This document shows, piece after piece, positions 982 through 56,318 of a stretch of DNA of 64,000 nt. Each line of letters opens with the position of its first letter. Position 1 is the stretch's first letter. Made by a program: the position numbers and the translations under genes. Below the pieces are notes generated by a model. The model was not told where the DNA came from and searched no databases. It saw only the letters and a program-made list of their open reading frames with translations. The DNA comes from Pontederia crassipes (Eukaryota > Streptophyta > Magnoliopsida > Commelinales > Pontederiaceae), in the NCBI GenBank assembly GCA_030549335.1, contig CM060196.1, positions 11,671,501-11,735,500 of the forward strand, written 5' to 3'.

Positions 982-1553
982 AAATTTCTGCATAGCTTCT
1001 CAACTTCGTCCAGGATTCCAATTAGAAGTTTTGTAGGCTGCATAGTGTGGGCTGTAGAGAGATGGCAACCGAGTTAACGAGCGTTAGTCGTCCAGCAAAG
1101 AAGAGAGTCTTGGCTGACGAACTGGATAGAGGAGATTGGACTTTGTAAATGAATTGACCATAAGTTTCCTTTGTGATTCTTCCATGGCGCAAAGGAACTC
1201 CAAGATATATATTTCCCGAGGTTGTCTCTGATATTGAATCCATGCATTTGCTGAATTTCATTTTTAGCACATTGAGAGACATTGCTTGACAAGAGGAGGG
1301 CGCGTTCGGAGGCATTATGTTGCATGTCAGAGGCAGAGCAAAATAGGGAGATGGCGTCCAAGGTGATCTGCATAGACGACTTTGAAGCCTTGGAGAAAAT
1401 AAGGAAATCATCAGCAAAAGTAGGATGCATGAGTTCTGGCCGATCAATCTTGATAGTTGTCGGGTCCTGTGGCTTTAAATGGATGCATGCCCCATAGTTC
1501 CTTCCGGATTTCTCAAGAAGAGAATGGGCATTCCAGATGGCGCATGTGCCTCA
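982..1553 (-). mobile_element. LINE fossil, left array edge (truncated)
   Basis: Minus-strand non-LTR RT segment with FADD and the LGVPLRHGRITKE / GRLTLVNSVA thumb motifs typical of plant L1 elements. Its 3' half is cut off at the array edge next to the anion-channel gene. It shares variants with the copy at 46440-47895. Confidence 0.85.
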
Positions 1554-1765
1554 ATGTATACACATTTCATTTTCAATGAATATTTATTGAGGCAACAGAC
1601 ATATAGAGAATATTACGTCTCATCATGACAAATAAAAGTAGCAGTTATAAATGGTTATATTTTGGAGCTTAAGAGGAATACTCAAGCATGTTCAGGTTAG
1701 CAATTACTTCGGTACAACCCCTAAAGTTTAGGCTATCATATTTATCAAAATACTCCTAAGTGCCA

Positions 1766-2690
1766 CACTACAAGTCTGCCAAATATATAGTTGACTCAGC
1801 CTGGTGATGCTAAAGTGATGCTAAATTGAGGCTAAAAGCAATAGCCACACTTCAGCATCGACACAACGCTAGGCTAAAGTGATGCTAACTTTCGGTAACT
1901 GTTAGCATCACCATGACGTCAAAGCAAACGACGGCACTACTGGCATCACCTCTCGACACTAGTTCGACGTTATGATGACGCTATAAGTCGCGTTGCAAAG
2001 CGGTAATTAGAGCCGCTAGTTAGACACTAAAGTGACGTTGATTGTGTCGTTGGGGACGTCAATATGATGCTAAATGCGAACGCTATTCTAATGCTAATGT
2101 GGCATTAAAATAATCATCTATGGGCACATTATTATATATGGATGATGTTTCAAGATCATTTACCATTATTGCTGTTAAGAATAGTCTATTTCTCACTTTG
2201 CGTGATGGCCACCATTCATCCTTGATTCTTTTCGACGGATACTTAGTGTAATACAATTGTTGTGTCTGTTCTGCGAATACGAATCTATGATTGAAGTTTT
2301 GAGCGAGAATTAATATCTACCAATTTAAACTTTTGATAGCTCCATTTTTCATATGGAACTAATGACATTTTAACACTACGATTTTGTTAAATTTTTTCCA
2401 TATAGGATAATTCTATGATTTCTTTTATAATGTCGTAATATCCTAACTCATTGACCACATACATGCTTTCCAAAACACCTATGCCACAATTAATAGTAGA
2501 ATATTGTTCATTGATAACATTTGCATTTACGACATGGGCATAAGCTTTCACCACATGAAGAAGCTAACGTTTTCATTTCGACACGCCTCCTTATTAAATT
2601 CATCAACACTATCTTTATATTCTTTTGTTATAATGTCACGTTTATCATTCCAACGACGAATCCAACTACGATGTCAAAAGCTAAACTTTA
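1766..2690 (-). mobile_element. CACTA end plus TNP2 N-/C-terminal fossil, left edge
   Basis: Starts with CACTACAAG, the typical CACTA terminus, followed by subterminal motifs GATGCTAA, TTAGCATC and GACGCT in both orientations (about 1800-2130). On the minus strand from about 2690 comes a Transpos_assoc-like start (SWIRRW.. then DDVDEFIKEACRNEDV and CPCRKCKC). It is followed after a short distance by a DUF4216-like piece (DPFVFAEQTQQLYYTKYPSK), so the middle of TNP2 is missing. Only this copy keeps the CACTA terminus intact. Confidence 0.75.
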
Positions 2691-3670
2691 AAATTTAATA
2701 AAATAAATTCACATTAATCCATAAATGCTTATCAAATAGCAACAGAACTATGTAGAAATTTTCATGCATAAGCAAGCAATTTGCATCAACTTTGGCCAGT
2801 GGATCTCTAAAGACCTTGAGGATTGTAATTAAACAGTCCTAACAAAAAGATTAGTATTATAACAAGATCCAATTCATTAATGAACAAGAACTAACTATAA
2901 TATCATAGTTAAGATATTTAGCAGAATGGACATAACTCTGGTGAACTGGTGCAAGATCTTATCAATGTATTGTATCTTGTTGTATTATTATTTTTCTCTC
3001 AACTTCTATTACACTGCTTACATCAGCTGCTAACTAAATGTCAGAATGATATAGAAGTGACGAAAGTAAGTAATTATTATAATGAGAAATTAGTTTAAAC
3101 AAAGTTTAAGAAAAAAAACTCCGATATTTAGGCCTTAACAGTGAGTTCATGAAAGAGTCCGTTCGCCCACATTCTCCTCCTCGCGACGTAAAGTTCTTTA
3201 AGTCTTAATGTTTAACCTTATCTAAAAGTACGCTAAAACTTGGCAAAAAAGAAGTGGACTGAAGAAATAGATGGATAAAACTTAGTTATAAATGATTGAA
3301 AGAAAAATACATTAATAGTCATTTTATATTAATTGACTGCGATTATAACTCATTGTTGCCCTCCACAACCTCAATATCACATGCCATAGTAGTCATTTTT
3401 TATTAATTGACTACGACTATAACTCATTGTCGCCCCATAACCTCCATATATCATCATGTCAAATAATTCACGAAAGAATGATCCTTCCCATTAGCACGTG
3501 TATCACTAGGTGGGAATGGTCGGACTTTAGGATAAAACTGATCCTTCCGGGCAGTTTCAGCTTGAAGAGGAAAAATTTTGAGTAACAGCAAGTCATGAAG
3601 CGTCTTCCCAGTGGTTTGGAATGGTTGAACTTTGGGATAAAACAGGACATTCCGATCCTTCAGGGCAGTG

Positions 3671-3678
3671 TATATATG
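3671..3678 (+). promoter_or_regulatory. TATA box of pseudogene copy 1
   Basis: TATATATG, 116 bp before the ATG. It shares position with the intact copies but has a G in place of the last A. Confidence 0.6.
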
Positions 3679-4010
3679 CAATTGTTCCCTGCATACGTTA
3701 TCTCAACTTCTCATGCCCCACGCTCCTAGCTAGTTTCTTCGTCCTCGCCGAAACACACGTCCGCTGAGCTCCCTGCAATTGCAAAAATGGCCGCATGCGA
3801 TTACAAAAAGCTTTACCGGGAGTACATTGGACACCTCGATAATGGCGTCAACTTCACCGACGTACCCATAAACTCCGATGTCAACTTCCACTTCGTCCTC
3901 GCCTTCACCATCGACTACACGAAGACCCGACGCCCAAGCCCACCAATGGCGCATTCGACGTCTTCTGGGACAGCAACAACCTCAACCCCGAGGCCGTCGC
4001 CAGCATCAAG

Positions 4011-4243
4011 TGTGGATAATTGTAATTATGATAGGTTTATTACTTGATGTTAAACTTGTAATTAGTTGCTTTAGAATCTTCCAGCTGTCCATCTCTGTAA
4101 AAAATGGTTATTCACTGTTTCATTGATATAAAAAAGCTGATGAGCTCCTCGATCGTGAGGTAGTCATTCTGCCCACATCTCTGATTACAATCTCTTCTTC
4201 CTTCCTCCTTGAACGAGCTCGAGCTGAAATAGAGCAGTTGACA
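4011..4243 (+). repeat. 5' LTR of the Copia element
   Basis: 233 bp, TGTGGATAATTG to GCAGTTGACA, directly followed by the primer-binding site. Confidence 0.95.
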
Positions 4244-7200
4244 TGGTATCAGAGCAGAGTGCGATTACTTGCCCGGGGACGGGTGAATTGTTGCTTTCAT
4301 CGGGAAAAGATCTTGACTCCCCAACTTCCCAAACAAAGCTCTTCATCTACCTTTTCTGTCGCAGTATCTGAGTCTTTGGATCTATCTCTCGACAGGTTCT
4401 TCTTATATACTTGCTAATTACGTCAAGTTTCTTCAGTTTTTTCTGCTTCTGTATCGTCCATGGAGAATTCTGGTGTTCTTTGTCCAAATACTTCAAACCC
4501 GAGTGGATCTACTCTTGTTTCAATAGATCACACTCATACGTTGTTTTTTGCTTCCATCGGACTTGCCTGGATTGGTTTTAATTCCAATTCGATTAACTGG
4601 TAGTGAGAATTATTTGATGTGGAGTCGTGCTTTTTCGAATGCACTGTTAGCAAAACATAAACTGAGTTTCATTCGAGGTACTTGCAGAATGGATCATTTT
4701 GAGGGAGATCAATTCCAGTGGCAGAGGTGTAATGCTCTTGTTCTTTCCTGGATAATTACAACTTTTTCTGATGGTTTAGTTGGCAATATTGCTTACTTGT
4801 CTTATGCATCTGAAGTATGGAGAGATATGAAAGAAAGGTTTGATACTGTTAGTGGTACCAAGTTGTATCATCTTCATAGGGAAATTGCTACCTTATCTCA
4901 GGGAGTTATGACTATAACTAAATATCATACCAAATTGAAACTTCTTTGGGAAGAATTGTACACCATTATTCCTTCTCTTGGAATTCATGATCCGGCAAGT
5001 TTAGAGTACTTCAGACAGTTAAAGGTTTTTCAATTTCTGATAGAGCTTAATGAGTCTTATGCTGCTATAAGATCTCAAATCATACTTATGAGACCTTTTC
5101 CCTGCAGAGAATCAGGCTTATTCTATGTTAATTGAGGAAGAGAAACATAGGAAAAGCAACTCTTATACCAACCAAGTTGTTCATGTTCCATCAAACATAC
5201 CTATGGCCAATTTATCTGTTTCTAATCAGAATGTTAAAGGCAAAAAACCCAATAGAAATGTGATTTGTGATCATTGTCATAAATCTGATCATAGTAAAGC
5301 CCAGTGTTATAGATTGATTGGCTTTCCATAGGGTTTCAAGTTTTCTAAAAATAGGGAGCAGATGTCAGCAAATTCTGTTGTTACAGATTGCAGTAACATT
5401 TCATCCGAGAAGTCAACATCAGATCTTAATGTTGTTTCCTCCAACTCAGTCAATATACCACAGGTTTCTCGCAATACATTGATTACAAATGATCAATATC
5501 AGCAGATTTTGGACATTCTGAATCAACACAAAAATCAGATGTCATGGCTAATATGGCAGGTACTGATTTTTTCTTTGCTGAATTTCTGAACACTAAATGG
5601 ATTATTGATTCAAGGGCATCTGACCACATGGTGTCAGATATCACCTTTCTGATGTTAAGAAATTACATCAGCCTAGAGAAGTCAGATTGCCTAATGTAAC
5701 ATGTCTACGATAACAAATCTGGGTAATTGTAGTGTTTCAGATAGTCAAAGTCTCCAAGATGTGTTATACATTCCTGAGTTTAAGCATAATCTTCTGTCAG
5801 TTTCAAAGTTGTGCAAGGACTTACTTTGTGTGGTCATTTTCTATCCCAACATATGTCTGATACATGACCTTTACACTGGACTGATGAAGGGGATTGGTAG
5901 ACAAGATGGAGGTCTTTACTATCTGGTGCAAACTAATGAAGTTCCTAGGAAAGCTGATGGCAACTGCAACTAAGGAGGAGTCCAACATTGCTCACATGTG
6001 GCACAAATGACTGGGACATTTACCATATCATAGATTGCGATATGTGTTAGATTTTGACAGCAGCATATCTCTGAATAATTGTCATTGTACAATCTGTTGT
6101 ATGGCCAGACAATCCAGGCTGCCTTTTCCTATTAGTAGCTCCTCTATTAATTCTTGTTTTGATCTTATTCATTTGAATGTTTGGGGTCCATATCATAACC
6201 CCACACATGATGGATTTCATTTTTTTCCTTACCATTGTTGATGACTTTACTAGAATGACATGGGTGTACCTTCTAAAAACAAAGAGTGAAGTTCATGAAT
6301 ATTTGAAACAGTTTGTGTTTATGGTTGACACTCAGTTTGGCAAGAAGGTTAAAGTCTGTCATCAGATAATGGAACAGAATTCCTTAATAAAGCAACTCAG
6401 TCTTTTTTTTCCTCCAGGGGCATTTGTCATCAAACATCTTGTGTGTACACTCCACAACAAAATGGAGTTGTTGAACGTAAGCACAAACACATACTTCACA
6501 GCAAGAGCTTTACGTTTTCAGAGCAATTTACCTCTCAAGTTCTGGAGTGACTATGTCCTCACTGCAATTCATTTAATTAATCACAGTCCCTTATCTGTTC
6601 TGGGCAATCAAAATCCTTTTGAGAAATTGTTTGGTCATAAACATATTTTGGATTATTTGAGAGTGTTTGGCTGTCTGTGTTTTGCCACAACCTTAAATCC
6701 TTCTGATAAGTTTGCTTCGAGAGCTTCAAAATATGTGTTTCTTGGTTATTCTCCTACATAGAAAGGCTATAAGGTTCTGGATCTTCTAACCAACAAGATA
6801 TCAGTTAGTCGAGATGTTGTTTTTCAGGAAGATGTCTTTCCTTTTTCAGAATTCAGTAGAGATGATCCTACATTGGCCATCACTTCTTCTTATCAAGAAT
6901 TTGATCCTTTTAAACCTCTGATATTTTCAACAACTCCCACTGAAACTTGAATCCTGTTGGCCACTCTGACTCTACTGATAACTTGCCTCCTGATAACACT
7001 ATTGGTTCTACTGATAACTTGTCCCTTGCCTTCAATACTTTACCTGCAGCTAGCAGATTACTTGATGGTTTGTCACCTACTAGTTCTTCTTCCATGCCTG
7101 GCCTTGATCTTCAAGTTATTTTACCTGAGATTTCTTCTTCCACTTATACTTCTCAACCTCCTGCTGTTCCAAGTTGTCAGGCATGTCCCAAAAGAGTTGT

Positions 7201-8878
7201 TAAGCCTCCCAACTGGTTGAATGATTACGTTATCAATTCTTCAGTAATGCTTGCTTGCCATCCCATTTCTGATTTTGTTCAATATAAACACCTGCCACCT
7301 TAGTATCAATGCTTTCTTACTTGTCTCAATTTTGTTCATGAACCTTGTTCTTTTTCTGATGCTGCCACTGATCCTAATTGGGTGGCTGCTATGAAGTTGG
7401 AAATGGATGCCTTGCAATCTAATCACACTTGGGATTTGGTTGACCTTCCTCCTGGCAAAGTGGCAATAGGTTGTAAGTGGGTCTATAAAATCAAGCTACG
7501 AGCTAATGGAGAGGTTGAACGGTATAAGGCTCGATTGGTTGCGAAAGGTTTTACACAGCAAGCTAGTATTGATTACAAGGAGACTTTCTCTCCAGTTGTT
7601 AAAATGATCACTGTTCGTACTCTTCTTGCTGTTGCAGCTCAACGAGGTTGGCCATTGTTTCATCTTGACATAAACAATGCTTTCCTTAATGGTGACTTGA
7701 TTGAGGAGGTTAATATGGTTCCTCCTTTTGGTTTTCGCAGTCAGGGGGGTCCTTCCAAAGGTTTGTCGCCTGCGAAAGTCTCTTTATGACCTCAAACAAG
7801 CTTCTCGACAGTGGAATTTAAAATTAACACAAATTCTTGTAGCAGCTTGATTCGAGCAGAGCAAATTGGATTACTCTATGTTCACCAAGAAGACACATTG
7901 TGGTCTCATTGTTTTTCTAGTTTATGTGGATGACATACTCTTAATGGCCAATCATGCTCACCTTGTTGATGAGGCAAAGATGGTTCTGCAATCCAATTTT
8001 AAGATTAAGGATTTAGGGAATCTTCGTTTCTTTCTGGGTTTGGAAATTATGAGATCAGACAAAGGAATTTTACTGAATCAGAGAAAGTATTCTCTTGATC
8101 TGATTGCTGAGATAGGCACAGCTGCTACAAGATCGGTTGAGGTTCCTTTGGAACAAAATTCTAAACTCACAGTCACAAGACCAGAAATAGGACGACTGAT
8201 TTATCTTACAGTCACAAGACCAGAAATAGCTTTTTCAGTTCAACATCTAAGCCAATACATGCAACATCCAAAAGAAGTCTCATATGGATGCAGCCATAAG
8301 AATTGTTAGATATCTTAAACAAGATCTTGCAAAAGACCTTTTTTTCTTGGCTAGCAGTAATAAGAAGGATACTTCCATGCAAATTGGGCGGCATGTCTTC
8401 TTACTCGCAAGTCAATCACAGGCGTCTGTGTCAAGCTTAGTGATTCTTTGATCTCCTGGAAGTCGAAAAAATAACTACTGTGTCTAAATCTTCAGCTGAA
8501 TCTAAATATAAAAGTCTGGCATCTGTTGTCAAATTGTTTGGCTACAACGATTACTTTCATAACTGAATTTTCAGGTTAAACTTCCTGTTCAAGTCAATTG
8601 TGACAACAAGGCAGCACAGTCAATTGTGAAATTGCCAGCAATCCAATTTTTCATGAAAGGACTAAGCACATTGAAGTTGATTGCCATTTCGTTTGTGAAA
8701 GGCTTCTTATAGGATTGATTCAGACTAAGAACATCTTTTCTGCTGAGCAGCTAAGAACATCTCTTCTGCTGAGCAGCTGGCAGATATCTTTACCAAAAGT
8801 TTAGGGGTTGAACAACATGAGTATCTTCTTTTCAAACTTGACTTGTTAAGTATACATACTGCCAAGTTTGAGGGAGAG

Positions 8879-9111
8879 TGTGGATAACTGTAATTACGAT
8901 AGGTTTATTAATTGATCTTAAACTTGTAATTAGTAGCTTTAGAATCTTCCAGCTGTACATCTCTGTAAAATATGGTTGTTCAGTGTTTCATTGACATAAA
9001 AAAGCTGATGAGCTCCTCGATCGTGAGGTTGTCATTCTGCCCACATCTCTGATTACAATCTCTTCTTCCTTCCTCCATGAACGAGCTGGAGCTGAAACAG
9101 AGCAGTTGACA
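8879..9111 (+). repeat. 3' LTR of the Copia element
   Basis: 233 bp, preceded by the purine tract and followed by TCAAG, the second copy of the target duplication. Confidence 0.95.
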
Positions 9112-10024
9112 TCAAGGATGGCCACAAGCACTTGAAGGTCGCACTCAGCCTCGGCGGGGCAAGCATATGCGGTACTGACGTAGTCTTCACCGTCACCAAC
9201 GTGGATTCCTGGGTAGACAACGCCGTATCCTCTCTGACCTCCATCATTCTGGAGTACCACATCGATGGCATCGACATCGACTACGAAGCCTTCCAGCCTG
9301 ACTCCGTGCACACCTTTGTGGAGTGTATCGGGAAGTTGATCACGACCCTCAAGCACGAAAAACTCATATCCTTAGCTTCCATTGCTCCACACGACAACGC
9401 CCTGGTCCAGGGCTACTACATGGCACTGTGGAAGACGTACAGTAGTTTTATCGACTATGTAAACTTCAAGTTTTACCAGTATCCCAGCTTGGACGTGGAA
9501 AAGTTCCTGGACCACTACAACCAGCAACTCAAGAACTACACTGGTGGAAATGTTTTGGCAAGCTTCCGTACCGATGGGGTTGGCGGGTTAACACCTGGGA
9601 ACGGCTTCTTCCGTGCCTGCGAGAGGCTCAAGGGGGAAAATAAGCTTCCAGGGATCTTTGCGTGGTCTGCGGACGCGTCACTTGCATCTGCAAGTGGGTT
9701 CATACACGAGAAGGAAGCGCAGAATCTACTTGCGAATTAATGGCCAGTGATCAACGTATGATTAACAGATGCTCTGTACGTGCAGGCGGAAATCTTTCAC
9801 ATCCACCCGGCAAGTTGAATTTGTGTGTGAATTTTGTTGTGCTCTGGTGTTATCGTCTATATGTAATCTAAATAATGGTGTGATAGAGAATGAGGGGTTG
9901 TGGCACAGTAGTACATACAGCCTTTTCATTCCTCTTTTACGCCTTATTTATTCGCTTCAATATACATATGTATATGTATCTCAGAGCTATATATTTCTTA
10001 GTTTGTAATTGAAATAAAAAAGGG

Positions 10025-11090
10025 TGTGATCCGAATTATTATTAACGTGCGCAATATTCGTATGAACTTTATATATTATATTTTGGATTCATTTAAATAG
10101 AAGTCAAGTTAAAATTTCATAACGATTCTGCAGAAAGCTAAACAAGATGGATTCCGGAGAAAGACAAAAGGAGGAACTTGCATTAATGTCAACCAACTAT
10201 TATGTCTCACCCTTCTATTTATGTTGTGTGAAACTGCAGCTTACTAAAAATGTTCTGGATGTTTCTCCTAGCTATACTACCTTTTATGCAAGAAATACAA
10301 AATGAACACTCTCCCTCGAGTTGATAGATGATAGAGATCTAGGAAACTCTACTTGCCAACTAAATGGCTGTCGTATTGTCTGACATTGAAGTTTAGTAAG
10401 AATATTAGCTACCTTATCTTTAGAAGAAACATGTTGTAGGTGAACAAGGGATTACATATATCAATTGCGAACAAAATTGCAATCCACTTCAAAGTGTTTT
10501 GTTCGCTCGTGAAAAAATAAATTCTGTGCAATCTGAATTGCTACTGTGCTGTCACGAAATAATATAATTGTAAGTGAAACAAAAATTCGTAGTTCTCAAG
10601 GAAGTCGTTGCAGCCAAATAACTTCTAAAACTGCTAATGTAAGACTTCAATATTCTGCCTTTGCATTTGATTGAGAAACCATTGATTGTTTTTTATTTCC
10701 ATGAAATTATAAAATCTCCTAACTTGATAGAATATGCAGAGACCGAACATTGTGTCACAGCACATTAAGCTCATTCCGCGTCACAGTATGCCACTAACTC
10801 GCGAAGTTTTAGCAGGAAACAATAGGTCCTTTGCAGGAGATCCTTTTAGATATTGTACAATATGTAATGCAACATTATGATGCGAGTGATCCAGTCTATT
10901 CTATGCATGAATTGTCTTAAATGATGCACAACAAACCCTATGTTTGGGAGAGTCATGGGTTAAGTAAATGAGACGACGATAAGCCACTAAAAAAGTTTTC
11001 AATCATTTATCGAAGAGTCTACGAGTAACCATTCACCTTGACCGGATGGATGTTTATCATAGACAGGCGCGGTGACCTTTACATTCTATT
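10025..11090 (-). mobile_element. Copia fossil fragment (RT-RNase H-LTR), unit 1
   Basis: On the minus strand, recognisable RT and RNase H blocks (HERTKHFEVDCNFV, SSKDKVANILTKL) lead to a purine tract CGAGGGAGAG and an LTR starting TGTTCATTTTG (+ strand 10025-10308). The 5' two thirds of the element is missing and the rest is heavily broken. It is shared by all units, so it is older than the array. Confidence 0.85.
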
Positions 11091-11094
11091 CAGG

Positions 11095-12785
11095 TGGAGT
11101 ATCAGCTTTTTTTATGCACTATGATCCAAATCCGTCACAAGTGCATAACTTATTTGTACGATTCTTAACCGAATTCTTGTACTCTCAAACGTGTCACTGA
11201 GTTGATAACCTATAAAATGTTGAAAGAAAAAGTCAATCCAAAATTTATTAAAAAAAATATTTGTGAAAAATCGAAACAAGTTCTCACTTCACTTATCAAC
11301 GAATTGTTCATCTCTTACTTTCAATACTGCATTGTTTGAAACTGAAGGATTGATTTCGCTTTCCAATTCTTCAAATTGCTTGAAATTGAAGATTGTCATT
11401 TAGCAAAATCACATAGCAATAATTTGTTCAAACCTTATAACATATTAAATAAATATACTTACTCGAGATGCGATGCCATCTCGCTACAATTAGCTACTTT
11501 ATAACATATTAAATAAATACTATGTCCCTCAACACAACTTTGCATCATTTACCAAAAAAATGACATGGGTATTTAGTGATGCAAAAAGTATTTTTGTTAA
11601 TTTATCTTTCACCACCATCATGGTTTCTTGGAACTTGCGTATGCCATGATTGTATGTGTCGGCTCAAAGTACAATGAATTGGGCATGTCCTTAATGAGAT
11701 ACATTTCACATAAAGAGCTCTCAACTTTTGCCTTATTCTTTGGCTTTCTTCTCAATTATAGCATGCATCTTTCAAATGGATATATCCACTGATTTTCAAT
11801 CGGGCGGACAATTTTGTACAATCAAGTGTTCCCTCACGTTAAAAAAAAGAAGATGAAAATATCTTCTCAATATGCAAGATTGTTATCGCAAGACTCTAAC
11901 CAAGACGACTTCTTTGCGGACGTTGGATCCACAAACTTACTTTAAGAACATAGATAAGTTCATTAAAGTTTCCTAACTAGCTTTTGACAGAAGTTCTTTA
12001 AAAGCATTTGGACGCAACCTTTGAACGAATATGTGATAATAATGACTCTTCATATCATGTATCTTTCCATTTTCTGTGTTCAAATAATTAGAAATCCTTT
12101 ATGCATATCCGTCTAGAAATTGATTATTGTACCCATTCAAAAACCACTTTCATTGATTATTGTCCCAAGACTTAAGTCGCTTCTTCATTGTTGCATTCTC
12201 CATTGTGAAGAAAAATAATATCTAATTATGGTCTTCTACATATAATTTTCATGTCATCACGCTTGTATACTATCTTTTTGTTCTTTCTTTAACATCTATA
12301 ACGATGTTAAAAATGTTGTCGGATACGTTCTTCTCCATATGCATGACGTTCAAGTTATGTCCAATTATGTTTGAATAACAATAAGGCAACTCCCAAAAAA
12401 TAATTCTCTTCTCCCAATTATGTTCACTCTCAAACTTAATTTTCTTATAAAATCGGCCTTCAATCTGAATGAGACTTGATTAAGTTTTTTTTCTTGTTCT
12501 AGTACTTCTTGTCCCGTCAAATGACTTAGACACAATGTGTAATCAATTGTATTCTTTTTAAATGAGTTTCGTATCACAACAGATCTCTCCAAAGGCAAAA
12601 AAATCTGATGGCAATCAAACTAGCATACCTTCCTACTATTTTACAAATAAAATAATTTTGTATCCTTTCTGCATATGGGACAAGAAAGTTTACATGTTCG
12701 ACTCATGTGGTGAAAGAAAATCTCATTTCTGGAAGTCCACATGTGCAAACTACCAGATGCAAAGACCATGGACCAAGGAGCAATA
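11095..12785 (-). mobile_element. CACTA TNP2 transposase fossil (middle and DUF4218-like part), unit 1
   Basis: Minus-strand translation gives SHLTGQEVLEQ, then HNWEKR, LPY-like and GHNLNVMHMEKNVSDNIFN, the signature of the Transposase_21 domain of En/Spm TNP2. Further on come a KSHHYHIFIQRLLP-like block, a MEKIFSSSFF..WEHL block and ETYFIKDMSNSLYFEP, as in the DUF4218 region. Many stops and shifts; a fossil without its own ends. Confidence 0.8.
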
Positions 12786-12799
12786 GTACTTCTAGGTGC

Positions 12800-19380: not shown

Positions 19381-19430
19381 TCAAATAATTCACGAAAGAA
19401 TGATCCTTCCCATTAGCACGTGTATCACTA

Positions 19431-38855: not shown

Positions 38856-38879
38856 GTACTTCTAGGTGCTCTGACTCAT

Positions 38880-42410: not shown

Positions 42411-42424
42411 CCCAGTGTATACAA
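42411..42424 (+). promoter_or_regulatory. Promoter deletion scar of copy 5
   Basis: CCCAGTGTATACAATT replaces the longer segment seen in other copies. The missing 61 bp equal 27160-27220 of unit 3. Only TATAC remains of the TATA box. Short CAGTG repeats flank the lost piece, which suggests slippage or end joining. Confidence 0.8.
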
Positions 42425-42529
42425 TTGTTCTCTGCATACATTATCTCAACTTCTCATGCCCGACGCTCCTAGCTAGTTTCTTCGTCCTCGCCGAAACACA
42501 CGTCCGCTGAGCTCCCGGCAATTGCAAAA

Positions 42530-43378: not shown

Positions 43379-43663
43379 TGGCCAGTGATCACCGTATGCA
43401 TTGGCAGATGCGCTGTACGTGCAGGCGGAAATCTTTCACATCCACCCGGCAAGTTGAATTTGTGTGTGAATGTTGTTGTGCTCTGGTGTTATCGTCTATA
43501 TGTAATCTAAATAATGGTGTGATAGAGAATGAGGGGTTGTGGCACAGTAGTACATACAGCCTTTTCATTCCTCTTTTACGCCTTATTTATTCGCTTCAAT
43601 ATACATATGTATATGTATCTCAGAGCTATATATGTCTTAGTTTGTAATTGAAATAAAAAAGGG

Positions 43664-44735: not shown

Positions 44736-44739
44736 CAGC

Positions 44740-46420
44740 TTTTTTTATGCACTATGATCCAAATCCGTCACAAGTGCATAACTTATTTGTACGATTCTTA
44801 ACCGAATTCTCGTACTCTCAAACGTGTCACTGAGTTGATAACCTATAAAATGTTGAAAGAAAAGTCATTTCAAAATTTATTAAAAAAATATTTGTGAAAA
44901 ATCGAAACAAGTTCTCACTTCACTTATCATCGAATTGTTCATCTCTTACTTTCAATACTAATTGTTTGAAACTGAAGGATTGATTTCGCTTTCCAATTCT
45001 TCAAATTGCTTGAAATTGAAGATTGTCATTTAGCAAAATCACATAGCAATAATTTGTTCAAACTTATAACATATTAAATAAATATACTTACTCGAGATGC
45101 GATGCCATCTCGCTACGATTAGCTACTTTATAACATATTTAATAAATACTATGTTCCTCAACACAACTTTGCATCATTTACCAAAAAAATGACATGGGTA
45201 TTTAGTGATGCAAAAAGTATTTTTGTTAATTTATCTTTCACCACCATCATGGTTTCTTGGAACTTGCGTATGCCATGATTGTATGTGTCAGCTCAAAGTA
45301 CAATGAATTGGACATGTCCTTAATGAAATACGTTTCACATAAAGAACTCTCAACTTTTGCCTTATTCTTTGGCTTTCTTCTCAATTATAGCATGCATCTT
45401 TCAAATGGATATATCCACTGATTTTCAATCGGGCGGACAATTGTGTACAATCAAGTGTTCCCACACTTTAAAAAAAAAGAAGATGAAAATATCTTCTCAA
45501 TATGCAAGATTGTTATCGCAAGACTCTAACCAAGACGACTTCTTTGCGGACGATGGATCCACAAACTTACTTTAAGAACATAGATAAGTTCATTAAAGTT
45601 TCCTAACTAGCTTTTGACAGAAGTTCTTTAAAAGCATTTGGACGCAACCTTTGAACGAATATGTGATAATAATGACTCTTCATATCATGTATCTTTCCAT
45701 TTTCTGTGTTCGAATAATTAGAAATCCTTTATGCATATCCGTCTAGAAATTGATTATTGTACCCATTCAAAAACCACTTTCATTGATTATTGTCCCAAGA
45801 CTTAAGTCGCTTCTTCATTGTTGCATTCTCCGTTGTGAAGAAAAATAATATCTAATTATGGTCTTCTACATATAATTTTCATGTCATCACGCTTGTATAC
45901 TATCTTTTTGTTCTTTCTTTAACATCTATAACGATGTTAAAAATGTTGTCAGATACGTTCTTCTCCATATGCATGACGTTCAAGTTATGTCCAATTATGT
46001 TTGAATACCAATAAGGAAACTCCCAAAAAATAATTCTCTTCTCCCAATTATGTTCACTCTCAAACTTAATTTTCTTATAAAATCGGCCTTCAATCTGAAT
46101 GAGACTTGATTAAGTTTTTTTTCTTGTTCTAGTACTTCTTGTCCCGTCAAATGACTTAGACACAATGTGTAATCAATTGTATTCTTTTTAAATGAGTTTC
46201 GTATCACAACAGATCTCTCCAAAGGCAAAAAAATTTGATGGCAATCAAACTAGCATACCTTCCTACTATTTTACAAATAAAATAATTTTGTATCCTTTCT
46301 GCAAATATGGGACAAGAAATTTTACATGTTCGACTCATGTGGTGAAAGAAAATCTCATTTCTGGAACTCCATATGTGCAAACTACCAGATGCAAAGACCA
46401 TGGACCAAGGAGCAATAGTA
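44740..46420 (-). mobile_element. CACTA TNP2 middle fossil, unit 5
   Basis: Shared fossil. Variants such as the CATATCCGTCTAG context near 45735 match unit 1 rather than units 2-4. No copy exists in units 6 and 7. Confidence 0.8.
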
Positions 46421-46439
46421 CTTCTAGGTGCTCTGACTC

Positions 46440-47895
46440 ATAAATTATCTAATAGCCGCTCATGGAGAGGCAGCCGGAAGAACTGACTCCACATTTGACG
46501 TATAAGAAGAATTTTCCAGTAGGTGGATACGCTCGAGCAATCATGACGAACATGCAAGACATCTTTCGAGCTTGAAGAGCATAGAGGACAAAGGTAATGG
46601 CACCAATGCCCCGTCGCTGCCTTAAGTTGGTGATTAAACTGTCATGAGATGCCATCCAAACGAAGGATCAGATCCCATGAGGTTCCTGCCAATTCCATAT
46701 TAGTTTCCATATAGGATCGGCATGGTTATTCCGAGTGCGGAGTGCATAGGCAGATTTGATGTTGAGGATTTCATCTTCATTGGGTATTCAAGGAACTTTA
46801 TCTGGGCCATGGGAGAGTTGGGGGGTGAGGGGGACAAATGGCTACAATCTTGTTATGTAGCGTGTTAGGGAGGAATGTGGATTGTCTGTCAAGGTCCCAG
46901 CATCCTTGCGGAGAGATAATTGCAGACACTAGGATTGGAGTCTCCTGGTGTAGAGGTGTCCACAGCATCTTGATCCGCGGTGGTGATTTTGGGATCCAGG
47001 AGTGGGTCCCAAAGTTTGTGGATCTCCCATCCCCAATACAACGGCCAAAGGAGCCAATGATTTTCGGTCATACTTCACAAATTGCACGCCAAAGGGTAGA
47101 CGATTGACTCTACACATTGAAGCTCGGTGAGTTGCTCTTGGTGCTTTTATATTTGTGGAGTACTTGCACCAAGAGTTGTTGCGGCTGAGTTAGGGATCAC
47201 TAGAAAGATTTTGCCATGAAAGCCTCATTAACTATTCAAAGTGAGCAGATGACAAGTCTACAAAATGCTAGGTGTTGGGTGATTTTTTGCCAATTGATTG
47301 TGTGTAGCTTCCTATTGTCCTCATTGTGGCTCCAAAGGAAATTTTTGCATAGCTTCTCAACTTCGTCCAGGATTCCAATTAGAAGTTTTGTAGGCTGCAT
47401 AGTGTGGGCTGGTAGAGAGATGGCAACCGAGTTAACGAGCGTTAGTCGTCCAGCAAAGAAGAGAGTCTTGGCTGACGAACTGGACAGAGGAGATTGGACT
47501 TTGTAAATGAATTGACCATAAGTTTCCTTTGTGATTCTTCCATGGCGCAAAGGAACTCCAAGATATATATTTCCCGAGGTTGTCTCTGATATTGAATCCA
47601 TGCATTTGCTGAATTTCATTTTTAGCACATTGAGAGACATTGCTTGACAAGAGGAGGGCGCGTTCGGAGGCATTATGTTGCATGTCAGAGGCAGAGCAAA
47701 ATAGCGAGATGGCGTCCAAGGTGAGCTGCATAGATGACTTTGAGGCCTCGGAGAAAATAAGGAGATCATCAGCAAAAGTAGGATGCGTGAGTTTTGGCCG
47801 ATCAATCTTGATAGCCGTCGGGTCCTGTGGCTTTAAATGGATGCATGCCCCATTGTTCCTTCCGGATTTCTCAAGAAGAGAATGGGCATTCCGGA
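46440..47895 (-). mobile_element. LINE fossil, unit 5/6 boundary
   Basis: Shared LINE segment with unit-1-like variants, including the extra 20 bases near 46853-46872. Confidence 0.85.
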
Positions 47896-48132
47896 TGGCG
47901 CATGTGCCTCAATGTATAAACATTTCATTTTCAATGAATATTCATTGAGGCAACAGACATATAGAGAATATTATGTCTCATCATGACAAAAATAAAAGTA
48001 GCAGTTGGCAGTTATAAATGATTATATTTTGGAGCTTAAGAGGAGTACTCAAGCATGTTCAGGTTAGCAATTACTTCAGTACAACCCTTAGAGTTTAGGC
48101 TATCATATTTATCAGAATACTCCTAAGTGCCA

Positions 48133-49052
48133 CAGTACAAGTCTGCCAAATATATAGCTGACTCAGCCTGGTAATGGTAAAGCGATGCTAAATTGCGGCT
48201 AAAAGCAATAGCCACACTTTAGCATCGACACAAAGCCATGCTAAAGTGATGCCAGATTTCGATAACTGTTAGCGTCTCCATGATGCCAAAGCAAACGACG
48301 GCGCTACTATCGTCACCTCTCGACACTAGTTCGACATTATGATGATGCTATAAGTCGCGTTGCAAAGCGATAATTAGAGCAGCTAGTTAGACACTAAAGT
48401 GACGTTGATCATGTCGTTCGGGATGCCAATATGATGCTAAATGCGAACTCTATTCTAACGCTAATGTGGCATTAAAATAATTATCTACGGGCACATTATT
48501 GTATATGGATGATGTTTCAAGATAATTTACCATTATTGCTGTTAAGAATAGTCTACTTCTCACTTTGCGTGATGGCCATCATTCATCCTTGATTTTTTTC
48601 GACGGATACTTAGTGTAATACAATTGTTGTGTCTGTTCTGCGAATACGAATGGATCCTATGATTGAAGTCTTGAGCGAAAATTAATATCTATCAATTTAA
48701 ACTTTTGATAAACTGTAGCTCCCTTTTTCATATGGAACCAACGGCATTTTAACACTACGACCTTTTAAATTTTTTCCATATAGGATAATTCTATGATTTC
48801 TTCTATAATGTCGTAATAACCTAACTCGTTGACCACGTACATGCTTTCCAAAACACCTATGCCACAATTAATAGTAGAATATTGTTCATTGATAACATTT
48901 GCATTTCCGACATGGGCATAAGCTTTCACCACATGAAGAAGCTAACGTCTTTATTTCGACACGCCTCCTTAATAAATTCATCAACACCATCTTTATATTC
49001 TTTTATTATAACGTCACGTTTATCCTTCCAATGACGAATCCAACTACGATGT
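48133..49052 (-). mobile_element. CACTA end plus TNP2 fossil, unit 6
   Basis: Shared fossil, terminus CAGTACAAG. Confidence 0.72.
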
Positions 49053-50050
49053 CAAAGGCTAAACTTTAAAATTTAATAAAATAAATTCACAATAATCCAT
49101 AAATGCTATCAAATAGCAACATAACTATGTGGAAATTTTCTTGCATATGCAAGCAATTTGCATCAACTTTGGCCAGTGGATCTCTAAAGACCTTGAGAAT
49201 TGTAATTAAACAGTCCTAGCAAAAAGATTAGTATTATAACAAGATCCAATTCATTAATGAACAAGAACTAACTATAATATCATAGTTAAGATATTTAGCA
49301 GAATGGACATAACTCTGGTGAACTGGTGCAAGATCTTATCAATGTATTGTATCTTGTTGTATTATAATTTTTCTCTCAACTTCTATTACACTGCTTACAT
49401 CAGCTGCTAACTAAATATCAGAATGATATAGAAGTGACGAAAGTAAGTAATTATTATAATGAGAAATTAGTTTAAACAAAGTTTAAGAAAAAAAAACTCC
49501 GATATTTAGGCCTTAACAGTGAGTTCATGAAAGAGTCCGTTCAGCCACATTCTCCTCCTCGCGACGTAAAGTTCTTTAAGTGTTAATGTTTAACCTTATC
49601 CAAAAGTACGTTAAAACTTGGCGAAAAAGAAGTGATGGACTGAAGAAATAAATGGATAAAACTTAGTTATAAACGATTGAAAGGAAAATACATTATAGTC
49701 ATTTTATATTAATTGACTGCGATTATGACTCATTGTCGTCCTCCACAACCTCAATATCACATACCATAATAGTCATTTTTTATTAATTGACTACGACTAT
49801 AACTCATTGTCGCCCCACAACCTCCATATATCATCATGTCAAATAATTCACGAAAGAATGATCCTTCCCATTAGCACGTGTATCACTAGGTGGGAATGGT
49901 CGGACTTTAGGATAAAACTGATCCTTCCGGGCAGTTTCGGCTTGAAGAGGACAAATTTTGAGTAACAGCAAGTCATCAAGCGTCTTCCCAGTGGTTTGGA
50001 ATGGTTGAACTTTGGGATAAAACAGGACATTCCGATCCTTCAGGGCAGTG

Positions 50051-50058
50051 TATATATA
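50051..50058 (+). promoter_or_regulatory. TATA box of copy 6
   Basis: TATATATA, 116 bp upstream of the start codon. Confidence 0.65.
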
Positions 50059-50166
50059 CAATTGTTCTCTGCATACATTATCTCAACTTCTCATGCCCGA
50101 CGCTCCTAGCTAGTTTCTTCGTCCTCGCCGAAACACACGTCCGCTGAGCTCCCTGCAATTGCAAAA

Positions 50167-51015
50167 ATGGCCGCATGCGATTTCAGAAAGCTTTACCGGG
50201 AGTACATTGGACACCTCGATAATGGCGTCAACTTCACCGACGTACCCATCAACTCCGATGTCAACTTCCACTTCATCCTCGCCTCCGCCATCGACTACAC
50301 GAAGACCCCGACGCCCAAGCCCACCAATGGCGCGTTCGACGTCTTCTGGGACAGCAACAACCTCAACCCCGAGGCCGTCGCCAGCATCAAGGATAGCCAC
50401 AAGCACTTGAAGGTCGCACTCAGCCTCGGCGGGGCAAGCGTCTGCGGTACTGACGTAGTCTTCACCGCCACCAACGTGGATTCCTGGGTAGACAACGCCG
50501 TATCCTCGCTGACCTCCATCATTCTGGAGTACCACATCGATGGCATCGACATCGACTACGAAGCCTTCCAGCCTGACTCCGTGCACACCTTTGTGGAGTG
50601 TATCGGGAAGTTGATCACGACCCTCAAGCACGAAAAACTCATATCCTTCGCTTCCATTGCTCCACACGACAACGTCCTGGTCCAGGGCTACTACATGGCA
50701 CTGTGGAAGACGTACAGTAGTGTTATCGACTATGTAAACTTCAAGTTTTACCAGTATCCCAGCTTGGACGTGGAAACGTTCCTGGACCACTACAACCAGC
50801 AACTCAAGAACTACACTGGTGGAAATGTTTTGGCAAGCTTCCGTACCGATGGGGTTGGCGGGTTAACACCTGGGAACGGCTTCTTCCGTGCCTGCGCGAG
50901 GCTCAAGGGGGAAAATAAGCTTCCAGGGATCTTTGCGTGGTCTGCGGACGCGTCACTTGCATCTGCAAGTGGGTTCATACACGAGAAGGAAGCGCAGAAT
51001 CTACTTGCGAATTAA
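50167..51015 (+). CDS. GH18 chitinase-like protein, copy 6
   Basis: A 282-residue frame with complete GH18 motifs. It matches the Asp76/Val170 type of copies 4 and 7, differing from copy 4 only by Gly229 and Ala244. It looks closest to the consensus of that type. The TATA box at 50051 is 116 bp upstream. The gene is followed by the Copia-fossil LTR at 51301. Downstream of that, the unit is cut short by the array deletion, so this copy lies only 4.8 kb from the next gene. Confidence 0.93.
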   Translation: MAACDFRKLYREYIGHLDNGVNFTDVPINSDVNFHFILASAIDYTKTPTPKPTNGAFDVFWDSNNLNPEAVASIKDSHKHLKVALSLGGASVCGTDVVFTATNVDSWVDNAVSSLTSIILEYHIDGIDIDYEAFQPDSVHTFVECIGKLITTLKHEKLISFASIAPHDNVLVQGYYMALWKTYSSVIDYVNFKFYQYPSLDVETFLDHYNQQLKNYTGGNVLASFRTDGVGGLTPGNGFFRACARLKGENKLPGIFAWSADASLASASGFIHEKEAQNLLAN

Positions 51016-51300
51016 TGGCCAGTGATCACCGTATGCATTGGCAGATGCGCTGTACGTGCAGGCGGAAATCTTTCACATCCACTCAGCAAGTTGAATTTGT
51101 GTGTGAATGTTGTTGTGCTCTGGTGTTATCGTCTATATGTAATCTAAATAATGGTGTGATAGAGAATGAGGGGTTGTGGCACAGTAGTACATACAGCCTT
51201 TTCATTCCTCTTTTACGCCTTATTTATTCGCTTCAATATATATATGTATATGTATCTCAGAGCTATATATGTCTTAGTTTGTAATTGAAATAAAAAAGGG

Positions 51301-52361
51301 TGTGATCCGAATTATTATTAACGCGCGCAATATTCGTATGAACTTTATATATTATATTTTGGATTCATTTAAATAGAAGTCAAGTTAAAATTTCATAACG
51401 ATTCTGCAGAAAGCTAAACAAGATGGATTCCGGAGAAAGACAAAAGGAGGAACTTGCATTAATGTCAACCAACTATTATGTCTCACCCTTCTATTTATGT
51501 TGTGTGAAACTGCAGCTTACTAAAAATGTTCTGGATGTTTCTCCTAGCTATACTACCTTTTATGCAAGAAATACAAAATGAACACTCTCCCTCGAGTTGA
51601 TAGATGATAGAGATCTAGGAAACTCTACTTGCCAACTAAATGGCTGTCGTATTGTCTGACATTGAAGTTTAGTAAGAATATTAGCTACCTTATCTTTAGA
51701 AGAAACATGTCGTAGGTGAACAAGGGATTACATATATCAATTGCGAACAAAATTGCAATCCACTTCAAAGTGTTTTGTTCGCTCGTGAAAAAATAAATTC
51801 TGTGCAATCTGAATTGCTACTGTGCTCTCACGAAATAATATAATTGTAAGTGAAACAAAAATTCGTAGTTCTCAAGGAAGTCGTTGCAGCCAAATAACTT
51901 CTAAAACTGCTAATGCAAGACTTCAATATTCTGCCTTTGCATTTGATTGAGAAACCATTGATTGTTTTTTATTTCCATGAAATTATAAAATCTCCTAACT
52001 TGATAGAATATGCAGAGACCGAACATTGTGTCACAGCACATTAAGCTCATTCCGCGTCACAGTATGCCACTAACTCACGAAGTTTTAGCAGGAAACAATA
52101 GGCCCTTTGTAGGAGATCCTTTTAGATATTGTATAATATGTAATGCAACCTTTTGATGCGAGTGATCCAGTCTATTCTATGCATGAATTGTCTTAAATGA
52201 TGCACAACAAACCCTATGTTTGGGAGAGTCATGAGTTAAGTAAACGAGATGACGATAAGCCACTAAAAAAGTTTTCAATCATTTATCGAAGAGTCTACGA
52301 GTAACGATTCACCTTGACCGGATGGATGTTTATCATAGACATGCGCAATGACCTTTACATT
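51301..52361 (-). mobile_element. Copia fossil fragment, unit 6
   Basis: Copy of the shared fossil, ending at the unit 6/7 deletion junction, where LINE sequence follows at once. Confidence 0.85.
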
Positions 52362-52690
52362 ATATTGAATCCATGCATTTGCTGAATTTCATTTTTAGCA
52401 CATTGAGAGACATTGCTTGACAAGAGGAGGGCGCGTTCGGAGGCATTATGTTGCATGTCAGAGGCAGAGCAAAATAGCGAGATGGCGTCGAAGGTGATCT
52501 GCATAGACGACTTTGAGGCCTTGGAGAAAATAAGGAGATCATCAGCAAAAGTAGTATGCGTGAGTTTTGGCCGATCAATCTTCATAGCCGTCTGGTCCTG
52601 TGGCTTTAAATGGATGCATGCCCCATAGTTCCTTCCGGATTTCTCAAGAAGAGAATGGGCATTCAAGATGGCGCATGTGCCTCAATGTAT
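52362..52690 (-). mobile_element. LINE fossil remnant at the unit 6/7 junction
   Basis: Only the FADD-proximal 330 bp remain; the other end was removed by the 2.86 kb deletion. Confidence 0.85.
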
Positions 52691-52909
52691 ATACATTTCA
52701 TTTTCAATGAATATTCGTTGAGGCAACAGACATATAGAGAATATTATGTCTCATCATGACAAAAATAAAAGTAGAAGTTGGAAGTTATAAATGATTATAT
52801 TTTGGAGCTTAAGAGGAATACTCAAGCATGTTCAGGTTAGCTAGCAATTACTTCAGTACAATCCTTAGAGTTTAGGCTATCATATTTATCAGAATACTCC
52901 TAAGTGCCA

Positions 52910-53830
52910 CAGTACAAGTCTGCCAAATATATAGCTGACTCAGCCTGGTGATGGTAAAGAGATGCTAAATTACGGCTAAAAGCAATAGACACACTTTAGC
53001 ATCGACACAAAGCCATGCTAAAGTGATGCCAGCTTTCGGTAACTGTTAGCGTCGCCATGACGCCAAAGCAAACGACGGCGCTACTAGCGTCACCTCTCGA
53101 CACTAGTTCGACATTATGATGATGCTATAAGTCGCGTTGCAAAGCGATAATTAGAGCAGCTAGTTAGACACTAAAGTGACGTTGATCATGTCGTTCGGGA
53201 CGCCAATATGATGCTAATTGCGAACTCTATTCTAACGCAAATGTGGCATTAAAATAATTATCTACGGGCACATTATTGTATATGGATGATGTTTCAAGAT
53301 AATTTACCATTATTGCTGTTAAGAATAGTCTACTTCTCACTTTGCGTGACGGCCTTCATTCATCCTTGATTTTTTCGACGGATACTTAGTGTAATACAAT
53401 TGTTGTGTCTGTTCTGCGAATACGAATGGATCCTATGATTGAAGTCTTGAGCGAAAATTAATATCTATCAATTTAAACTTTTGATAAACTGTAGCTCCCT
53501 TTTTCATATGGAACCAACGGCATTTTAACACTACGACCTTTTAAATTTTTTCCATATAGGATAATTCTATGATTTCTTCTATAATGTCGTAATAACCTAA
53601 CTCGTTGACCACGTACATGCTTTCCAAAACACCTATGCCACAATTAATAGTAGAATATTGTTCATTGATAACATTTGCATTTCCGACATGGGCATAAGCT
53701 TTCACCACATGAAGAAGCTAACGTCTTCATTTCGACACGCCTCCTTAATAAATTCATCAACATCATCTTTATATTCTTTTATTATAACGTCACGTTTATC
53801 CTTCCAACGACGAATCCAACTACGATGTCA
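52910..53830 (-). mobile_element. CACTA end plus TNP2 fossil, unit 7
   Basis: Shared fossil. The clearest reading of SWIRRWKDKRDVIIKEYKDD followed by VDEFIKEACRNEDV is here, on the minus strand near 53830-53715. Confidence 0.75.
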
Positions 53831-54825
53831 AAAGCTAAACTTTAAAATTTAATAAAATAAATTCACATTAATCCATAAATGCTATCAAATAGCAACATAA
53901 CTATGTAGAAATTTTCGTGCATATGCAAGCAATTTGCATCAACTTTGGCCAGTGGATCTCTAAAGACCTTGAGGAATGTAATTAAACAATCCTAGCAAAA
54001 AGATTAGTATTATAACAAGATCCAATTCATTAATAACCAAGAACTAACTATAATATCATAGTTAAGATATTTAGCAGAATGGACATAACTCTGGTGAACT
54101 GGTGCAAGATCTTATCAATGTATTGTATCTTGTTGTATTATAATTTTTCTCTCAACTTCTATTACACTGCTTACATCAGCTGCTAACTAAATATCAGAAT
54201 GATATAGAAGTGACGAAAGTAAGTAATTATTATAATGAGAAATTAGTTTAAACAAAGTTTAAGAAAAAAAAACTCCGATATTTAGGCCTCAACAGTGAGT
54301 TCATGAAAGAGTCCGTTCAGCCACATTCTCCTCCTCGCGACGTAAAGTTCTTTAAGTGTTAATGTTCAACCTTATCCAAAAGTACGTTAAAACTTGGCGA
54401 AAAAGAAGTGATGGACTGAAGAAATAAATGGATAAAACTTAGTTATAAACGATTAAAGGAAAATACATTATAGTCATTTTATATTAATTGACTGCGATTA
54501 TAACTCATTGTCGTCCTCCACAACCTCAATATCACATACCATAATAGTCATTTTTTATTAATTGACTACGACTATAACTCATTGTCGCCCCACAACCTCC
54601 ATATATCATCATGTCAAATAATTCACGAAAGAATGATCCTTCCCATTAGCACGTGTATCACTAGGTGGGAATGGTCGGACTTTAGGATAAAACTGATCCT
54701 TCCGGGCAGTTTCGGCTTGAAGAGGACAAATTTTGAGTAACAGCAAGTCATCAAGCGTCTTCCCAGTGGTTTGGAATGGTTGAACTTTGGGATAAAACAG
54801 GACATTCCGATCCTTCAGGGCAGTG

Positions 54826-54833
54826 TATATATA
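54826..54833 (+). promoter_or_regulatory. TATA box of copy 7
   Basis: TATATATA, 116 bp upstream of the start codon. Confidence 0.65.
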
Positions 54834-54941
54834 CAATTGTTCTCTGCATACATTATCTCAACTTCTCATGCCCGACGCTCCTAGCTAGTTTCTTCGTCCT
54901 CGCCGAAACACACGTCCGCTGAGCTCCCTGCAATTGCAAAA

Positions 54942-55790
54942 ATGGCCGCATGCGATTTCAGAAAGCTTTACCGGGAGTACATTGGACACCTCGATAATGG
55001 CGTCAACTTCACCGACGTACCCATCAACTCCGATGTCAACTTCCACTTCATCCTCGCCTCCGCCATCGACTACACGAAGACCCCGACGCCCAAGCCCACC
55101 AATGGCGCGTTCGACGTCTTCTGGGACAGCAACAACCTCAACCCCGAGGCCGTCGCCAGCATCAAGGATAGACACAAGCACTTGAAGGTCGCACTCAGCC
55201 TCGGCGGGGCAAGCGTCTGCGGTACTGACGTAGTCTTCACCGCCACCAACGTGGATTCCTGGGTAGACAACGCCGTATCCTCGCTGACCTCCATCATTCT
55301 GGAGTACCACATCGATGGCATCGACATCGACTACGAAGCCTTCCAGCCTGACTCCGTGCACACCTTTGTGGAGTGTATCGGGAAGTTGATCACGACCCTC
55401 AAGCACGAAAAACTCATATCCTTCGCTTCCATTGCTCCACACGACAACGTCCTGGTCCAGGGCTACTACATGGCACTGTGGAAGACGTACAGTAGTGTTA
55501 TCGACTATGTAAACTTCAAGTTTTACCAGTATCCCAGCTTGGACATGGAAACGTTCCTGGACCACTACAACCAGCAACTCAAGAACTACACTGGTGGAAA
55601 TGTTTTGGCAAGCTTCCGTACCGATGGGGTTGGCGGGTTAACACCTGGGAACGGCTTCTTCCGTGCCTGCGCGAGGCTCAAGGGGGAAAATAAGCTTCCA
55701 GGGATCTTTGCGTGGTCTGCGGACGCGTCACTTGCATCTGCAAGTGGGTTCATACACGAGAAGGAAGCGCAGAATCTACTTGCGAATTAA
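54942..55790 (+). CDS. GH18 chitinase-like protein, copy 7 (last in array)
   Basis: A 282-residue frame with DGIDIDYE, SLGG and the C-terminal Trp intact. It differs from copy 6 by Arg77 for Ser and Met202 for Val only, so these two neighbours are probably the most recent duplicates by protein. The TATA box is at 54826. Its 3' flank keeps only the first part of the antisense Copia LTR before array homology ends at about 56318. Lacks signal peptide and introns like its paralogues. Confidence 0.93.
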   Translation: MAACDFRKLYREYIGHLDNGVNFTDVPINSDVNFHFILASAIDYTKTPTPKPTNGAFDVFWDSNNLNPEAVASIKDRHKHLKVALSLGGASVCGTDVVFTATNVDSWVDNAVSSLTSIILEYHIDGIDIDYEAFQPDSVHTFVECIGKLITTLKHEKLISFASIAPHDNVLVQGYYMALWKTYSSVIDYVNFKFYQYPSLDMETFLDHYNQQLKNYTGGNVLASFRTDGVGGLTPGNGFFRACARLKGENKLPGIFAWSADASLASASGFIHEKEAQNLLAN

Positions 55791-56075
55791 TGGCCAGTGA
55801 TCACCGTATGCATTGGCAGATGCGCTGTACGTGCAGGCGGAAATCTTTCACATCCACCCGGCAAGTTGAATTTGTGTGTGAATGTTGTTGTGCTCTGGTG
55901 TTATCGTCTATATGTAATCTAAATAATGGTGTGATAGAGAATGAGGGGTTGTGGCACAGTAGTACATACAGCCTTTTCATTCCTCTTTTAAGCCTTATTT
56001 ATTCGCTTCAATATACATATGTATATGTATCTCAGAGCTATATATTTCTTAGTTTGTAATTGAAATAAAAAAGGG

Positions 56076-56318
56076 TGTGATCCGAATTATTATTAACGCG
56101 CGCAATATTCGTATGAACTTTATATATTATATTTTGGATTCATTTAAATAGAAGTCAAGTTAAAATTTCATAACGATTCTGCAGAAAGCTAAACAAGATG
56201 GATTCAGGAGAAAGACAAAAGGAGGAACTTGCATTAATGTCAACCAACTATTATGTCTCACCCTTCTATTTATGTTGTGTGAAACTGCAGCTTACTAAAA
56301 ATGTTCTGGATGTTTCTA
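56076..56318 (-). mobile_element. Copia fossil LTR remnant, unit 7 (array end)
   Basis: Only about 243 bp of the 284-bp LTR remain before array homology stops. Confidence 0.8.

Follow-up and report, generated by a model that had tools for sequence, protein, structure and literature searches.

Class IIIb chitinases without a secretion leader are already known, and passages of PMC3091745 place them in tulip, rice, maize, Brachypodium and sorghum. The same passages describe narbonin as having no predicted signal peptide and as missing the catalytic residues, define the xylanase inhibitor proteins (XIP) by a changed DXXDXDXE motif in which the third D is replaced by an aromatic residue, and mention that GH18 genes are duplicated locally (PMC3091745). 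Here we describe a stretch of 64,000 nucleotides from Pontederia crassipes (the window; GenBank assembly GCA_030549335.1, contig CM060196.1, called C14 here, C14:11,671,501-11,735,500), which is the left part of a larger nested tandem amplification of a class IIIb-type GH18 chitinase gene. The genome that was searched comprises 1.13 Gb in 43 contigs, and we recognised no description of this array among the open-licence papers that our searches listed. The best explanation of the whole, to which we give a probability of about 0.8, is that the gene lost its leader, that a 7.6-kb unit carrying it was multiplied, and that a block of 81 kb was recently duplicated.

A protein search, in which the best 96 candidates were scored, gave 88 matches, and the 26 that lie on C14 correspond to 21 gene copies spanning ~202 kb (C14:11,672,482-11,874,783). 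Frames are intact in 18 of these copies; the broken ones are copy C6, whose reading frame is shifted, and the leading copy of each of two large blocks, split in both cases by a Copia element. Block A holds seven copies, block B eight, and six lie beyond block B. Self-comparison of the window found the units in direct orientation, with a period of 7.57-7.63 kb and 94-99% identity. A first-pass annotation of this DNA had described seven copies, six of them intact, in units of ~7.63 kb, and had placed the end of the array at 56318. The seven copies in the window were borne out, with six intact frames of 282 amino acids and copy 1 broken. Only the units starting at 16902, 24525, 32154 and 39782 are whole. 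The array does not end at 56318, and 56317/56329 is the junction of a block duplication. The units, genes and junction in the window, in window positions, are:

982..13732, + strand: unit 1, the edge unit, into which the Copia element is inserted (4011-9107; self-comparison)
3787..9740, + strand: GH18 copy 1, cut in two by the Copia element (5' piece 3787-4010, 3' piece from ~9110)
16902..24524, + strand: unit 2, complete
19709..20557, + strand: GH18 class IIIb-type copy 2, frame intact, leaderless
24525..32153, + strand: unit 3, complete, the reference unit
27333..28181, + strand: GH18 copy 3, frame intact
32154..39781, + strand: unit 4, complete
34962..35810, + strand: GH18 copy 4, frame intact
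39782..47361, + strand: unit 5, complete, lacking ~61 bp ahead of the gene (deletion at 42417/42418)
42530..43378, + strand: GH18 copy 5, frame intact, without the TATATATA run
47362..52361, + strand: unit 6, truncated to 5.0 kb, its right breakpoint with imperfect 8-bp microhomology
50167..51015, + strand: GH18 copy 6, frame intact
52362..56317, + strand: unit 7, truncated to 4.0 kb, stopping at the block junction
54942..55790, + strand: GH18 copy 7, frame intact
56318..56328, no strand: filler of 11 bp where the two copies of the 81-kb tandem block meet
56329..64000, + strand: start of the second block copy, duplicating what lies to the left of the array (from C14:11,646,793)

That a chromosomal block was duplicated in tandem, and not transposed, had been proposed before, and our analysis agrees. 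The units are adjacent, direct copies, head to tail and in register, and their breakpoints lie off the element ends. The two breakpoints that we examined (unit 6/7 and the block junction, within a base-by-base inspection up to C14:11,816,351) show microhomology or filler and no target duplication, and the two blocks differ by one unit. A spread of the copies by transposition, for example by capture in a mobile element, would be suggested by the several transposon fossils within the units, but every array copy is in register inside the 202 kb and there is no dispersed near-identical gene copy among the 62 protein matches off C14, each of them at most 71% identical. Near-identical units with element ends at unlinked sites appeared neither in the protein search nor in the lists of dispersed repeats for the unit fossils, which hold the best 40 scored candidates. 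Transposition is therefore extremely improbable, and ordinary tandem duplication at two scales, accompanied by exchange among the units, accounts for the array. The protein search gave no match on C13, with which C14 is paired. This pairing is based on a single pair of hits when light-harvesting genes were searched for; other chromosomes pair alike, and the pairs are homoeologous-looking. Together with one zein-family match (E 2.9e-5), the pairs suggest a polyploid, and by these signs alone a PACMAD grass would have been the probable source.

The larger of the two scales is a block made of the left flank and the array of the window. In the assembly, C14:11,646,793-11,727,817 is repeated directly behind itself as 11,727,829-11,816,351 with 99.6-99.9% identity. 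Over the 25,623 bp of left flank that lie outside the array, the two blocks differ by six substitutions (four transitions and two transversions) and eight indels, a divergence of 0.023%. The ends that meet at the junction are non-homologous, and the 11-bp filler between them as a whole matches neither the continuation of the array nor the sequence preceding the left end; its last six bp are the first six bp of the left end, and the filler can be read as partly templated. A further copy of part of the left flank, at 94%, was seen at C14:11,921,932-11,923,914.

A collapsed or duplicated assembly had been named as a concern in the first-pass annotation. The second 81-kb block would then be an artefact, consisting of two haplotypes or of one locus placed in tandem, and the true array would have ~13-14 copies. 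The left-flank divergence is indeed near the heterozygosity of a selfing plant, and a difference of one unit is possible between haplotypes; in finger millet, heterozygous single-nucleotide polymorphisms are reported at 1 per 12.3 kb (PMC10284860). On the other side, no N was found in C14:11,640,001-11,880,000 (240 kb), and the protein search, with its best 96 candidates scored, hit no contig numbered above C16. The 11 bp that match neither continuation look like a trace of end-joining, and overlap assemblers normally need reads for such joins, which we also count against an artefact. The concern is thus answered in part, by a gap-free region, filler at the junction and block copies that can be distinguished, and we consider an artefact quite unlikely.

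At plant clock rates of 6.5e-9 and 1.3e-8 per site and year, the block duplication would be about 9,000-18,000 years old. The units have a median divergence (K) of 0.018 (55 pairs, in the 2.1-kb upstream part), which at the same rates would date their amplification to about 0.7-1.4 million years. The earlier suggestion of a very recent amplification fits the outer 81-kb event, with its six substitutions, but not the units, which are ~1.8% apart. The Copia insertion (K 0.062) would be older than the units.

Because so few point changes separate the blocks, a difference of one unit and dense tracts of substitutions between them can be read as events that followed the block duplication. The span from A4 to A5 has no substitution relative to that from B4 to B5 over 7,568 bp, and the span from A5 to A6 has three relative to that from B6 to B7 in 7,576 bp; between these two matching spans, block B has one whole 7.57-kb unit more than block A. 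This extra unit is 16 substitutions away from its neighbour, about nine times the level seen between the blocks in the left flank, and for this reason the loss of a unit from A is simpler than a gain in B. Before the register shift 42 substitutions separate the blocks. Six belong to the left flank; of the 36 within the array, 29 fall in two tracts (14 in C14:11,694,697-11,695,282 and 15 in 11,699,907-11,701,451). At 17 of the 36 sites, all within the tracts, both states are present in other units, and gene conversion would fit these sites; the A state was found nowhere else at two sites, and for one site no other copy was found. The one-unit difference and the dense tracts are what one would expect after unequal exchange and gene conversion, and it is from these, together with the microhomology, that we infer such a process. 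In this respect the two blocks could serve to measure how exchange and conversion act on a gene array in a plant.

The gene itself was examined at the level of the protein and of its upstream region. Copy 2 matched PF00704 (Glyco_hydro_18) in Pfam with 43.2 bits against a cut-off of 29.6. The catalytic motif DGIDIDYE is present in all 18 intact array copies, and DXXDXDXE in all 13 paralogues of the tree (the gene with an early stop at C2:9.425 Mb being excluded). By sequence and by fold the best PDB chains were 4rl3, 7xmh and 3sim; 7xmh, whose title names a rice class IIIb chitinase, gave 46% identity and a template modelling (TM) score of 0.84 in Foldseek, and plant class V chains scored far lower in the fold search. 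From these closest chains we call the array protein a class IIIb-type GH18 chitinase, a putative assignment to the class IIIb clade as opposed to IIIa or class V.

An upstream hydrophobic leader, for example MEISKLLRSFLLVQAFVLATPRMAAA, opens the translated frame of the paralogues at contig positions C5:43.30, C6:27.16, C16:2.28, C2:9.79 and C2:9.89 Mb. The paralogue at C1:28.48 Mb has an identical leader start in its DNA, so that the leader start is found in six of the six other paralogues aligned. In the array copies the upstream leader frame is broken, and in the genes of the C2:9443k type (four of four read, one with an early stop) there is an open upstream frame and no ATG. The alignment gave both groups the same 6-bp gap at the leader start, and the main ATG of the array is an internal methionine of the six leader-bearing paralogues. 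The tree joined the array to the C2:9443k-type genes with a local support of 0.996, the array alone having 1.000. Leaders were unclear in the C2 paralogues at 9.377 and 9.526 Mb. These comparisons suggest that the array lineage has apparently lost its leader, and we predict that its proteins stay inside the cell and act there as chitinases. This leaderless clade raises a testable question, namely the role of an intracellular chitinase in plants.

An intact frame does not mean an unchanged gene, as the array copies lack the leader of the secreted-type paralogues and vary in their upstream region. The TATATATA run is retained in 14 of the 18 intact copies and was lost with ~61 bp in A5, B5 and B6; array copy C5, alone among the 18, has an unrelated upstream region. 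The sole ATG of the array in the stretch that corresponds to the leader, at -74, begins a frame of six codons (window 19635-19655 and its equivalents) that is unchanged in 17 of 20 copies and could lower translation. This small frame occupies the site of the leader start in the paralogues. A second large GH18 cluster of the genome (C2:9,366,000-9,886,000) has block-repeat signs of its own: pairs of matches of equal or similar score lie ~51.4 kb from each other, and in one further pair the distance is 23.5 kb.

The series of events that we propose would begin with a class IIIb-type GH18 gene losing its leader start, which would leave a leaderless, single uninterrupted frame from a former internal methionine. 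A 7.6-kb block of C14 with this gene and old transposon fossils would then have been multiplied in tandem; later, exchange between misaligned units would have gained and lost copies, along with gene conversion and some illegitimate breaks. The last step would be the very recent tandem duplication of 81 kb, the left flank and the window array together, closed by a non-homologous join with its 11-bp filler. Several points weigh against this scenario. One is that blocks A and B might, in principle, be two haplotypes placed one behind the other. Another concerns 16 of the 36 array difference sites, 12 of them among the 29 tract sites, where the state in block B has no parallel elsewhere; such sites need a donor outside this assembly, or a consensus error. 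The leaders were judged by eye, and the internal methionine is not general, being valine at C2:9.87 Mb and having no counterpart at C16:54.57 Mb. Finally, the structure model is a moderate one, with a mean predicted local distance difference test score of 77.5 (predicted TM score 0.83).

Selection for dosage, which had been suggested from the intact frames, was addressed in three ways. The pairwise ratio of non-synonymous to synonymous divergence was 0.50 (66 pairs, 12 copies). A home-made branch codon model was fitted to 25 sequences and 268 codons with intact copies only; the set excluded C6, the first copy of each block with its Copia split and, of block B, every copy but B6. Gene conversion violates the tree assumption of this model. 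Against a background omega of 0.22, the omega within the array was 0.38, with 1 rejected (p 0.011) and the background value not rejected (p 0.13). The leaderless C2 genes gave 0.30, with 1 rejected (p 0.0001), and the stems of the array and of the leaderless group gave 0.82 and 0.65, neither of which differs from 1. Counting events, we found 29 separate changes in the coding sequences of 11 copies, 20 non-synonymous and 9 synonymous, with no stop. The mutation spectrum of the flanks predicts 43.6 and 19.8 (stops counted with the non-synonymous changes); the observed split is thus the neutral share, while the number of changes is less than half of the 63.4 expected at the flank rate. Stops were expected 2.1 times and not seen (p 0.12), and none of the 11 copies whose flanks are complete had an indel in its coding sequence (p 0.01-0.06 under the indel rate of the flanks, from a manual count). 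A lower rate with a neutral split could come from conversion around the gene or from faster mutation of the fossils. Because the three tests disagree, dosage selection is possible and not demonstrated: the rejection of an omega of 1 speaks for it, and the neutral split against it.

The same data bear on the possibility that the array is passive, the leaderless copies being of little use and their frames intact through youth and conversion. This would agree with the neutral split, the 2.1 stops expected against none, and the stem omegas, as well as with the frameshift in C6, the absence of the common upstream region in C5 and C6, and the three copies with a promoter deletion. It agrees less well with the low omega within the array, the shortage of coding changes, the lack of indels and the constraint on the leaderless C2 genes, and we regard it as a serious candidate that falls somewhat short of even odds. 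Copy number may raise the dose. A fuller account, in which losing the leader start turned a secreted defence chitinase intracellular and selection for dose then carried the leaderless form to 21 copies by nested tandem duplication, with an outermost 81-kb step recent enough for the blocks to record conversion and unit loss before and after, is offered tentatively and as a whole seems rather doubtful.

The insertions and transposon fossils of the units are the remaining features of the window:

4011..9107, + strand: broken Copia-type long terminal repeat (LTR) retrotransposon, with a Retrotran_gag_3 match, an LTR pair and a target duplication
13733..16901, no strand: dispersed repeat of 3.17 kb, solo-LTR-like, directly after unit 1
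25645..26053, - strand: dispersed repeat fossil in unit 3, with 74-82% identity to the genome copies listed
29705..31149, no strand: dispersed repeat fossil of ~1.4 kb in unit 3, with 71-76% identity to the genome copies listed
31250..32685, - strand: fossil of a reverse transcriptase like that of long interspersed nuclear elements (LINE), across the border drawn between units 3 and 4, its extent set by eye from the frames

The Copia element lies inside GH18 copy 1; its ends read TG...CA, the target duplication is 5 bp long, and the LTRs, of ~230 bp, show 14 differences in 234 columns. The same insertion is present in block B, with one substitution in 5,099 bp. Between units 1 and 3 the Kimura two-parameter distance is 0.045 on the 5' side of the insertion (982-4010) and 0.023 on its 3' side (9110-13732), as if the insertion had limited conversion in unit 1. 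The 3.17-kb insertion is found at four places in the C14 array, at an identical position in the unit; it has relatives across the genome (among the best 40 of 5,403 candidates), and since several of these are pairs 6.4-7.7 kb apart, a solo LTR is the most fitting interpretation of it. The first-pass annotation had given every unit the same four fossils, all antisense to the gene. Dispersed repeats do occur at matching positions of the units, but exactly four, all antisense, could not be established; those that can be supported are the LINE-like reverse transcriptase, the piece with a weak DUF4216 match, the ~1.4-kb repeat and shorter pieces. The family names are tentative, because all Pfam matches on the fossil frames were below the cut-off (DUF4216, - strand 25620-25823, 18.6 bits against 30.6; RVT_1, in the equivalent stretch 24646-25071, 17.6 bits against 29.6).

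Compared with known systems, the array proteins are closest to the class IIIb chitinases of grasses (rice OsChib2, 7xmh) and to the tulip-bulb type, with which they have the fold, the sequence and the catalytic motif in common. Leaderless members occur there too and are not new as a phenomenon; the array lineage differs in having 21 copies on one chromosome. Narbonin, the leaderless GH18 seed protein of Vicia, has the same barrel (1nar, TM 0.79) but is catalytically stripped, whereas the array copies retain DGIDIDYE, and the loss of catalytic residues that marks an inactive GH18 protein of the narbonin type is not seen in them. A xylanase inhibitor protein does not fit either, the motif that is altered in XIP being intact in the array copies, and local duplication of GH18 genes is common to both. 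The array is in these respects a good but not unusual case of local gene amplification.

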